Positions 8,221-10,871 of a DNA stretch of 64,000 nucleotides are shown piece after piece. This DNA is from Fodinibius sp. Rm-B-1B1-1. Lineage in GTDB: Bacteria > Bacteroidota > Rhodothermia > Balneolales > Balneolaceae. A program made the position numbers and the translations under genes. Within the stretch, counting starts at the first letter, position 1. Each line of letters begins with the position of its first letter. The notes beneath the pieces are model-generated. The model did not search any database. It was not told the origin of the DNA and saw only the letters and a program-made list of their open reading frames with translations. The stretch spans positions 1,550,001-1,614,000 of the forward strand of contig NZ_JBCFYD010000001.1 in NCBI RefSeq assembly GCF_038594945.1, written 5' to 3'.

Positions 8221-10065
8221 ATGTGCGGAATTGTAGGATATATAGGAAATAAACAAGCGAGTGATATTATCGTTAAGGGACTTGAGCGTCTCGAATATCG
8301 TGGCTATGACTCTGCCGGTATTGCCCTATTGAATGGTAAGTTGGATATCAAAAAAGGTAAGGGTAAAGTTCAGAATCTTAAAAAGAAATTAAAAATGGAG
8401 CCCAGCGACGGTGTTGTTGGTATCGGTCATACCCGATGGGCTACGCATGGGGCCCCCAATGATATTAATTCGCATCCCCATGTGAGTGAGTCTGGCAAAA
8501 TTGCCTTGGTTCATAATGGTATTATTGAAAATTATAATACTCTGAAGAAAGAATTACAGAATAAAGGACGTACTTTTAATACTGATACGGATACCGAAGT
8601 TATAGCTCAGCTCATCGAGGAGATTTACGAGAACAGCAATGGTGAAGACATTACGTTTGAACAAGCTGTTCAGATGGCCCTTCAGCAAGTGGTGGGGACA
8701 TACGGTTTGGCAATTTTGAATGTGGAAGAGCCGAACAGAATTATCGTCGCCCGAAAAGGGTCGCCGCTGTTGCTTGGTATCGGGGAAGATGAAATGCTTG
8801 TGGCTTCGGATGCATCGCCTATTGTTGAGCATACCAAGAAGGTTGTTTATTTGGATGATGGTGAGATGGCCATCGTTACCAAGGATGGATATGATGTCAA
8901 AACAATTAACGATGTGCCGCTGACGAAGAAGGTGCACGAGTTGGCACTGAGCATCGAGGAAATTGAAAAGGGCGGCTATCCGCACTTTATGCTCAAAGAG
9001 ATTTTTGAGCAACCGCGTGCTATTTCGGATTGTTTGCGAGGTCGAATAAACGTCGAAGATCACTCCATTCAGTTGGGGGGTATTGCTGATGTGCTTGATA
9101 AATTGGTGAATGCCAAACGACTAATTATTGCGGCTTGTGGCACCAGCTGGCACTCTGGATTGGTAGCCGAGTATCTGTTTGAACACCTTGCCAAGCTTTC
9201 GGTAGAGGTAGAGTATGCTTCTGAATTTCGATACCGTGAAGCACTCATCGATGAGGATGATGTAATGCTGGTAATTTCGCAAAGTGGTGAAACCGCTGAT
9301 ACGCTGGCAGCCCTGCGTACGGCGAAGGAGCGCGGCGCACTTACACTCGGCGTTTGTAATGTGGTGGGATCAACTATTGCCCGTGATACTGATGCCGGAG
9401 TATACACACATGCCGGACCGGAAATTGGAGTAGCATCAACCAAAGCATTTACGACACAAGTTTCGGTGCTGGCAATGATGGCTATTTTACTGGGACAAAA
9501 GCGGGGTGTGCTGGATCAGGATTATGCAGCCCGGCTTATTGATGAGCTTGATCGCATTCCCGGAAAAGTGCAGCAAATTTTGGATAACAGTGAACCAATA
9601 AAAGAGATGGCAAAGCTGTTTACCTATGCTCCTAACTTCTTGTATTTGGGGCGTACATACAATTTTCCCGTTGCGCTTGAAGGAGCATTGAAGCTGAAAG
9701 AGATTTCTTATATCCATGCCGAAGGGTATCCCGCTGCAGAAATGAAGCACGGTCCCATTGCTCTTATTGATGAGATGATGCCAGTCGTGGTTATTGCAGC
9801 TACGGAGCATACCAATGAGAAGATGATTAGCAATATTGAAGAAGTGAAGGCGCGCCAGGGACGTATTATTTCAATTACGGGTGAAGACAATGATGAAGTT
9901 ATTGACTTGTCAGAGTTTTCTTGTCCCATTCCCGAAACCGAAGATTGCCTGTCACCGTTATTAACAACTATTCCGTTGCAGTTGCTATCGTATTACATTG
10001 CGGTTAATCGCGGATGTAATGTAGATCAACCTCGAAACCTGGCGAAAAGCGTGACGGTTGAGTAG
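8221..10065 (+). CDS. glmS: Glutamine-fructose-6-phosphate aminotransferase (isomerizing)
   Basis: The 614-residue product is full length for GlmS. It begins MCGIVGYIG, giving the N-terminal catalytic cysteine of the class II glutamine amidotransferase domain (about 1-230; later markers are GHTRWATHG and NTDTDTEVIAQL). Two SIS sugar-isomerase domains follow (about 290-430 and 465-600; AACGTSWHSG, ISQSGETADT, EISYIHAEGYPAAEMKHGPIAL split over the active site). The enzyme makes glucosamine-6-phosphate from fructose-6-phosphate and glutamine, the first step to UDP-GlcNAc for peptidoglycan and LPS. The 134-bp upstream region is too short for and shows no sign of the glmS ribozyme. A terminator follows the gene. 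Confidence 0.97.
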   Translation: MCGIVGYIGNKQASDIIVKGLERLEYRGYDSAGIALLNGKLDIKKGKGKVQNLKKKLKMEPSDGVVGIGHTRWATHGAPNDINSHPHVSESGKIALVHNGIIENYNTLKKELQNKGRTFNTDTDTEVIAQLIEEIYENSNGEDITFEQAVQMALQQVVGTYGLAILNVEEPNRIIVARKGSPLLLGIGEDEMLVASDASPIVEHTKKVVYLDDGEMAIVTKDGYDVKTINDVPLTKKVHELALSIEEIEKGGYPHFMLKEIFEQPRAISDCLRGRINVEDHSIQLGGIADVLDKLVNAKRLIIAACGTSWHSGLVAEYLFEHLAKLSVEVEYASEFRYREALIDEDDVMLVISQSGETADTLAALRTAKERGALTLGVCNVVGSTIARDTDAGVYTHAGPEIGVASTKAFTTQVSVLAMMAILLGQKRGVLDQDYAARLIDELDRIPGKVQQILDNSEPIKEMAKLFTYAPNFLYLGRTYNFPVALEGALKLKEISYIHAEGYPAAEMKHGPIALIDEMMPVVVIAATEHTNEKMISNIEEVKARQGRIISITGEDNDEVIDLSEFSCPIPETEDCLSPLLTTIPLQLLSYYIAVNRGCNVDQPRNLAKSVTVE

Positions 10066-10121: not shown

Positions 10122-10174
10122 AGGGTGATGTCAGAAGTAAACGAAATAGCGTTCTACACCGTTTTCTTATTTCT

Positions 10175-10747
10175 ATGGCTACGCTAAAAATTAAAAATAT
10201 GGTGTGCGACCGTTGTATTATGACGGTTCGCGATGAATTTTCCGAGCTTGGATATACCGTAAATACTGTTTCGTTGGGAGAAGTGAAAATTGAAGAGTCT
10301 CCAACCTTGGAAAATCTGGAGGATATTGCGGAAAAGCTCAATGATAAAGGGTTTGAGCTGATTACAAACAAAGGGGATGCACTTCTTGAGCAGATTAAAG
10401 TGCACCTTATTACTTACTTGGATTACATTGAAGAGGGTGAAGAGGTTCAAAAAATTTCAGCTTATTTAGAGGATAAGCTGAATTATAATTATGCGTATAT
10501 AAGTGATTATTTTTCTCAGAATTCCGGTAGTACCATCGAGAAATATCTTATCAATTTGAAGATTGAGCGTGTTAAAGAATTACTTAGTTACGAGGAGTTA
10601 ACGCTCAGCGAAATTGCCTGGAAGCTTAATTACAGTAGTGTCCAATACCTATCGAATCAGTTTAAAAGAGTTACCGGAGAGACGGTCAGTTCATTTCGAA
10701 AGCACATGGATGAGCAAAGTCGACAATCGTTGGACTCTATATCATAG
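10175..10747 (+). CDS. HMA domain-AraC fusion transcriptional regulator (likely copper-responsive)
   Basis: The product has 190 residues. The first 65 form a heavy-metal-associated (HMA) fold with the metal-binding motif MVCDRC (Cys11, Cys14). The C-terminal part (about 85-185) is an AraC-type DNA-binding domain: YISDYFSQNSGSTIEKYLINLKIERVKELL, read as the first helix-turn-helix, then LSEIAWKLNYSSVQYLSNQFKRVTG as the second. There is no sugar-binding cupin. An HMA module in place of the sensor suggests that Cu(I) or another soft metal is bound directly. The CopA ATPase gene starts 124 bp downstream on the same strand, so it is the likely target. The metal and whether it activates or represses are inferred. 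Confidence 0.85.
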   Translation: MATLKIKNMVCDRCIMTVRDEFSELGYTVNTVSLGEVKIEESPTLENLEDIAEKLNDKGFELITNKGDALLEQIKVHLITYLDYIEEGEEVQKISAYLEDKLNYNYAYISDYFSQNSGSTIEKYLINLKIERVKELLSYEELTLSEIAWKLNYSSVQYLSNQFKRVTGETVSSFRKHMDEQSRQSLDSIS

Positions 10748-10822
10748 TATCCAAAAATTTTACACATTTCTCCCAACCGTTTGTTACATCTGGTACGGTG
10801 ATCTGGATTATCTTTAGACCTA

Positions 10823-10870
10823 ATTTAAACCTGATCATAAAACAGTATTTAAACCTGATCATAAAACAGT
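10823..10870 (+). repeat. Perfect 24-bp tandem direct repeat directly before copA start
   Basis: Two identical, abutting 24-base units (10823-10846 and 10847-10870), each beginning ATTTAAACCTGATCATAAAA and ending CAGT, lie one base before the copA ATG at 10872. Each unit contains the palindrome TGATCA. The sequence just upstream (TTAGACCTAA) is partly similar. It may be a pair of regulator sites, or a recent slippage duplication of the untranslated leader. Confidence 0.9.
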
Positions 10871-10871
10871 T

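Follow-up and report, generated by a model that had tools for sequence, protein, structure and literature searches.

The described system closest in its working to the one presented here is CueR with copA, in which a one-component cytoplasmic copper sensor activates the gene of a P1B-1 ATPase. CueR binds between the −35 and −10 elements and distorts the DNA. CsoR and CopY are also dedicated to the control of copA operons, but they are repressors and have other folds. AraC/XylS activators (AraC, SoxS, MarA and proteins with a YesN-type DNA-binding domain) carry a C-terminal double helix-turn-helix domain (HTH_18) and bind half-sites two helical turns apart beside the promoter. CopZ, Atx1 and the N-terminal HMA domain of CopA have a CxxC pair in the loop before helix 1. 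CopR of Pyrococcus furiosus combines an Lrp-like helix-turn-helix with a TRASH domain. This archaeal protein of another family also stands outside the classical set of CueR, CsoR and CopY, and passages of one report present it as a one-component putative copper-sensing metalloregulator (PMC7830388). For marine Bacteroidota, passages of a second report give CusRS and CorE homologues as the only known copper signalling and name no one-component copper regulator (PMC10141476), and in Bizionia argentinensis the MerR- and CopY-like proteins are described by a third as being without a recognised copper site (PMC11213822). Our search of the literature, confined to open-licence papers, found no description of an HMA-AraC metalloregulator.

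Here we analyzed a regulator gene that precedes copA in a window of 64,000 nt (the whole stretch of DNA under study; Table 1). The regulator belongs by its DNA-binding domain to the AraC family and lies outside the CueR and CsoR families; in its proposed working it resembles CueR. We consider it probable that it is a cytoplasmic Cu(I)-responsive activator dedicated to copA, acting on an operator upstream of the copA promoter. Its DNA-binding domain and metal site are unrelated to those of CueR, and the proposed operator lies upstream of the core promoter. It differs from AraC/XylS proteins in its sensor: where these carry a cupin or another ligand domain, it has an HMA-like metal domain of about 64 residues, and the whole protein has only 190. 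It shares with CopZ, Atx1 and the HMA domain of CopA the predicted fold and the place of the CxxC pair. It differs from them in that the motif is MVCDRC and not GMxCxxC, the domain is fused to a transcription factor, and the sequence falls below the Pfam HMA cut-off.

Table 1. Features of the regulator–copA locus (positions in the window)
Feature	Position	Strand	Basis or reading
HMA-AraC regulator gene	10175–10747	+	ORF, 190 aa; HTH_18 and HTH_AraC above Pfam cut-offs
HMA-like sensor domain, residues 1–64	10175–10366	+	PDB HMA profile matches; predicted fold, VIA-align to GolB, Atx1 and CopZ
Cys11 codon	10205–10207	+	regulator ORF
Cys14 codon	10214–10216	+	regulator ORF
AraC-type DNA-binding domain, residues 94–182	10454–10720	+	Pfam, predicted model, AraC-family structure matches
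Proposed operator CCAAAAATTTTACACAT with second half-site TGTTA (10782–10786)	10751–10786	+	conserved ungapped block
Putative −7 promoter element TATCTTTAG	10809–10817	+	TA at fixed distance in aligned loci
Tandem pair of identical 24-bp units, copA leader	10823–10870	+	read as lineage-specific duplication, not operator
copA, Cu(I) P1B-1 ATPase, 750 aa	10872–13124	+	TIGR01511, sequence motifs

Domain make-up of the regulator and its genomic setting

The C-terminal part of the regulator is a double helix-turn-helix domain of the AraC/XylS type by both Pfam and structure comparison. HTH_18 scored 55.4 bits (cut-off 33.6, E 7.5e-15) and HTH_AraC 31.6 bits (cut-off 26.6). The domain matched AraC-family structures with Z of 11–13.7, for instance 6swi (Z 13.7) and the AraC DNA-binding domain 2k9s (Z 11.9). 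No MerR model of Pfam or NCBIfam matched, which places the protein outside the CueR family.

The protein starts with MATLKIKNMVCDRC, which contains Cys11 and Cys14. The Pfam HMA model (PF00403) gave no match to this N-terminus at E 0.001, so that its gathering cut-off was not reached, and the homologue L013 scored 14.1 bits against the cut-off of 24.8. The NCBIfam CopZ model matched at E 1.3e-4, a score under that model's own cut-off. When a profile of 45 homologues was compared with solved structures, it retrieved Bacillus subtilis CopA (8.2e-4), CopZ (0.0023) and further HMA proteins, with matches spanning residues 1 to about 60–70. The AlphaFold model (mean pLDDT 89) has the N-terminal order beta-alpha-beta-beta-alpha-beta, places Cys11 and Cys14 at the start of the first helix and in the preceding loop, and connects the HMA-like and AraC domains by a helix at residues 66–86. 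The predicted fold of residues 1–64 matched GolB (Z 8.6), Atx1 (Z 8.3) and CopZ (Z 7.8), and the domain thus combines a ferredoxin-like fold with a CxxC pair before helix 1, as expected of an HMA domain. Because other ferredoxin-like domains such as ACT score only slightly lower (Z up to 7.7), the fold by itself is no proof of an HMA domain; the CxxC pair and the sequence profile add to it.

CopA itself scored 575.8 bits with TIGR01511 (cut-off 397), which identifies it as a P1B-1 Cu(I) ATPase. Its sequence contains a GMHCAGC HMA motif, IACPCAL (CPC in TM6), and N-x6-YN-x4-P and MAFSS, which we take to be the TM7/TM8 signatures of Cu(I) P1B-1 ATPases. The first-pass annotation of this DNA had read an HMA domain with Cys11 and Cys14 where AraC proteins usually have their ligand domain, and had put copA 124 bp after the regulator. 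Both readings stand: the domain is real, if HMA-like, and conserved, and the ORF coordinates place the 124-bp gap at 10748–10871.

The order of regulator and copA is kept across the genus and the family, with a 697-aa gene inserted between the two in L010 and L070. Directly upstream of the regulator lies a glmS-like gene (GATase and SIS domains; 8221–10065). Several relatives also have a gene of similar length there, a stable order with no obvious functional link. The heptamer TAAACGA is found at about 10138–10144, 35–41 bases upstream of the regulator start; it is kept in the eight loci listed and occupies the same place in L007–L010, L063, L066 and L067.

We also surveyed the genome for the known kinds of copper regulators. 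CsoR (PF02583) was not detected in it and was found in one of 89 family genomes. No protein exceeded the CueR cut-off (TIGR02044, 147.4 bits). The two best scores, 129.4 and 126.2 bits, belong to MerR-family proteins that we rejected as CueR, being below the cut-off and encoded beside mercuric-reductase-like genes, in one case also with a MerT/P-like gene (gene names by reading). Given the absence of CsoR, the scores below the CueR cut-off and the mercuric-reductase-like neighbours of the MerR genes, no classical cytosolic copper sensor of the CsoR or CueR kinds was found in this genome. Elsewhere a CusRS-like two-component pair, again named by reading, lies next to a multicopper-oxidase-like gene and could serve the periplasm. 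A metal island (L238, G000:C1:548500-565100) contains in one row, by reading, a two-component pair and multicopper-oxidase-like, MerR, ArsR, MerT/P-like, mercuric-reductase-like and CusA/CzcA-like pump genes.

Candidate operator and promoter of copA

Upstream of copA we found a conserved, ungapped block in 22 of 30 family loci, those selected for alignment by the strings TTTTACACA or TATTACACA. Its consensus is CCAAAARTTTTACACAT-N14-TGTAA, with a TA exactly 27 bp further on. Measured from the first T of TTTTACACAT, TGTAA begins after 24 bases and the TA follows at 51 bases. The TA stands at exactly this distance in all 22 aligned loci, and every other distance from 35 to 65 has a TA in 0 to 5 of the 22. 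We take the TA to belong to the −7 box of Bacteroidota promoters (TAnnTTTG). In the window the block occupies 10751–10767, including the first half-site core TACAC (10761–10765). The second half-site, 21 bp on, is off the consensus (TGTTA instead of TGTAA), and the TA is at 10809–10810.

Close inspection of the family loci outside the alignment gave a mixed picture. In L070 the site lies upstream of copA, past the inserted gene; L085, a short contig, has the site; L071, L075, L079 and L080 have variant TRTAA direct repeats, found by eye and partly by pattern search; and L076 and L084 have no convincing site. The non-family loci L011, L029 and L051 did not match the operator strings.

Across 12 genomes of the genus, the exact 62-bp pattern occurs once each in seven, in every case ahead of copA. 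In an eighth, a copy with one mismatch precedes copA and another with two mismatches immediately precedes a CopB-type ATPase. At up to two mismatches the genus has a single further match, by a flagellar gene; at three mismatches the search is at background (31 matches, 29 in the control). In L010, despite the 697-aa gene that follows the regulator, the block is beside copA, and it is therefore tied to the copA promoter and not to the 3' end of the regulator gene. The conserved element at about 10751–10786 is likely the regulator's operator, as judged from these alignments.

Sensor classes, neighbouring ATPases and operator geometry across the family

Homologues of the regulator are found in 73 of 92 family genomes (E ≤ 1e-20) and in 181 of 394 genomes from a phylum-wide sample (E ≤ 1e-15). 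Named relatives with the regulator include Fodinibius halophilus and an uncultured Aliifodinibius. Plasmid copies are present in 33 records, 16 of them from Hymenobacter, and are mostly annotated as AraC family regulators. The fusion represents a widespread and apparently undescribed family of putative one-component metalloregulators in Bacteroidota and relatives.

We classified 176 distinct regulators (183 loci minus 7 repeats; L122–L161 were picked from similarity groups) by the motif at the metal site and recorded the nearest P1B ATPase. For the 112 MVCxRC regulators this was an ATPase with the ACPC Cu(I) signature in 56 cases, CopB-type in 3, Zn-type in 1 and untyped in 1. The other 51 had none, many with short flanks; at L063–L091 the flank is only 1500 bases in many loci, and an ATPase beyond it would go unseen. 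Where the neighbour could be typed, it was therefore a Cu(I) P1B-1 ATPase for 56 of 60 CxRC regulators. The 19 MVCxHC regulators adjoin Zn/Cd-type ATPases (SCPCG) in 14 cases, with one SCPCA ATPase on the opposite strand, one untyped and three without. None of the 40 MVSxRC regulators, in which the first cysteine is replaced, has a P1B ATPase in its flank, nor do the five with neither motif. Thus, CxRC members are mostly found by Cu(I) ATPases, and the sister CxHC clade, including a paralogue in the same genome (37% identity to the regulator), by Zn/Cd-type ATPases.

A less selected set (L178–L237), consisting of 60 loci among the best-scoring matches listed from outside the window's family, has a Cu ATPase beside 34 of 58 CxRC loci. 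The remaining 24 have no typed Cu ATPase in the flank (23 none, 1 untyped). On inspection, several of the 23 adjoin other metal genes, including an HMA-containing membrane protein, an RND pump and a copA cut by the contig end. In the tree the CxHC regulators form one fully supported clade, and all sensor classes together need only four changes. Because CxHC is one clade, the correlation of sensor and ATPase reflects few evolutionary events, and as independent evidence the agreement between motif and ATPase type is weak.

The paralogue with the CSHC motif (L122, G000:C1:564000-570500) overlaps a small Cys-rich gene that shows a GDCC stretch in another frame. It is followed by a small gene, which has an operator of its own, and by a Zn/Cd-type ATPase. 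In the MVSxRC branch (many loci, L018–L050 and L142–L153) the second cysteine is kept, and several members adjoin hybrid histidine kinases. In L038 the regulator frame continues without a break into a PAS/histidine kinase/receiver protein, and the long frame of L040 is similar. One genome (L150) carries a tandem pair of MVSxRC regulators.

The geometry seen at copA recurs in other family members, which have 21-bp direct repeats of a TRYAM core (TACAC/TGTAA, TATAA/TGTAA, TGCAC/TGCAA) and, 26 or 27 bases on from where the second core begins, a TA..T box. We searched the 450 bp downstream of each regulator with a loose pattern, TRYAM-N16-[TC][AG][CT][ATG][AC] followed by TA..T at 26–27 bp from the second core start, and took the expectation from Markov shuffles. 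The pattern was present in 40 of 85 Cu-type CxRC loci (0.4 expected) and absent from the other 45; it was present in 9 of 19 CxHC loci (0.2 expected), in 2 of 26 CxRC loci without ATPase, in 1 of 40 MVSxRC loci and in none of the 5 others. Reverse-strand matches numbered 4, 1, 0, 1 and 0 in the same classes. The Zn/Cd paralogue has TGCAC, TGCAA 21 bases on and TATTTTGG 26 bases later, upstream of its operon (G000:C1:566415). Judged by spacing, degenerate 21-bp direct repeats with a −7 box 26–27 bp away, in other Cu lineages and the Zn clade, have the geometry predicted for class-II activators. Strict 21-bp repeats with a −7 box also stand upstream of the MVSxRC genes themselves in 6 of 40 cases (L025, L036, L038, L040, L042 and L047), which suggests that these regulators may be autoregulated.

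In the window's own clade a simple 10-mer direct repeat at 21 bp is not the best fit: identity is 0.28 there, 0.45 for a direct repeat at 24 and 0.54 for an inverted one at offset 23. Given this low identity, the half-site model leans on the short TRYAM core and on the other clades. We kept the 21-bp reading because TATAAC-type copA loci show this core at this spacing again, as do other Cu lineages and the Zn clade. This clade may instead have an inverted TTACA/TGTAA arrangement.

We lean, with some reserve, towards a broader reading in which HMA-AraC proteins form an undescribed metalloregulator superfamily that would replace CueR, CsoR and CopY in Bacteroidota and allied phyla. The metal site would have been retuned from Cu(I) (CxRC) to Zn/Cd (CxHC) under an unchanged operator geometry, and the SxRC branch would have given up metal transporters. 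The occurrence in 181 of 394 genomes, together with the Cu(I) ATPase beside 34 of 58 CxRC loci among the best-scoring matches listed, makes the regulator a concrete candidate for cytosolic copper sensing in a major phylum. The candidate comes with a named putative binding site and is directly testable. It would make AraC a further member of the small set of metalloregulator folds, and it offers a natural Cu-to-Zn specificity switch on a single scaffold.

Proposed mechanism, alternatives and the tandem repeat

In the mechanism that we propose, Cu(I) would bind Cys11 and Cys14 of the HMA-like domain and favour the active form. Two metal-bound protomers would then each occupy one of the half-sites, which are spaced by 21 bp immediately ahead of the copA core promoter, and the downstream protomer would contact or recruit RNA polymerase, as AraC-type class-II activators do. 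CopA would be made and copper exported. Class-II activation geometry is known from AraC. Of this picture, we observed the domain make-up, the conservation of the operator, its constant distance to a promoter element, its linkage to copA and the division of the family by sensor motif and ATPase type, and we inferred metal binding and its specificity, recognition of the element by the regulator, and activation.

As to the signal, direct sensing of Cu(I) by the HMA-like domain is most likely, judging from the predicted fold and the neighbouring genes. The CxxC pair might instead sense thiol redox, Ag, Au or Hg, or receive copper only from CopA or CopZ, with copA as one output. The gold-binding GolB is the closest fold match of the N-terminus, and CxxC pairs can be redox-active. 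We consider this unlikely, since Cu(I) P1B-1 ATPases make up 56 of the 60 typed neighbours of CxRC regulators and the genus operator marks Cu ATPases only, bar the weak two-mismatch match at the flagellar gene.

The same operator could also serve a repressor that leaves it on binding metal, by the logic of CsoR and CopY, and the downstream half-site is near enough to the core promoter to hinder polymerase. This, too, is improbable: the fixed spacing of 26–27 bp between half-site and −7 element, seen in all 22 aligned loci and in other clades, is what one expects where an activator contacts polymerase, and AraC-family regulators are mostly activators. We therefore infer activation, not repression.

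A third alternative assigns the conserved block to a promoter or terminator feature unrelated to the regulator and bound by another factor. The regulator is only a candidate partner of the operator, and the genome does encode the CusRS-like pair elsewhere. We regard this as quite unlikely, because similar clade-specific cores are found by both Cu- and Zn-type HMA-AraC genes and almost never downstream of MVSxRC genes, and no gene of the genus other than the cognate copA has the exact site. The preferred reading remains binding of the block by the HMA-AraC regulator.

The first-pass annotation had further noted two identical 24-bp units abutting the copA start and had proposed them as the regulator's binding site. 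The units are indeed there: a perfect duplicate (10823–10846 and 10847–10870) that ends one base ahead of the copA ATG and is the top-scoring tandem array of the window (score 96). Allowing up to three mismatches, we found the repeat core at no other place in the window (0 in 100 shuffles) or in the rest of the genome. The proposed role did not hold. The suggested check for conserved repeats upstream of the ATPase returned none in 61 other loci and left the repeat unique to this strain among the genomes compared: of 62 loci searched for an exact tandem repeat of at least 15 bases in the 330 bases upstream of the ATPase, only that of the window (L001) was positive. Of the earlier interpretation, the HMA-like sensor ahead of copA therefore stands, with Cu(I) sensing as its most likely reading, and the repeat as binding site falls.

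A perfect tandem array adjoining copA would suit AraC-type proteins, among which tandem half-site binding is frequent, yet we rejected the repeat as operator and hold this role to be very improbable, because relatives keep regulator and copA without it, the conserved −7 element precedes it, its 24-bp spacing differs from the 21 bp that recurs in the family, and a better conserved element is found further upstream. The repeat starts 14 bases past the TA of the putative −7 element and should therefore fall on the transcription start or downstream of it. Among 233 other loci of up to 9000 bases, L107 comes closest to the unit, with 20 of 24 bases. In an alignment with four relatives, their leaders have sequence for about a single unit where the window has two, and the gap between regulator and copA, 124 bp here and 100–107 bp in five near relatives, is longer because of the extra unit. 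From these alignments, the most plausible origin of the repeat is a recent duplication by slippage that would lengthen the 5' leader by 24 bases, and we propose that its effect there is neutral or minor.
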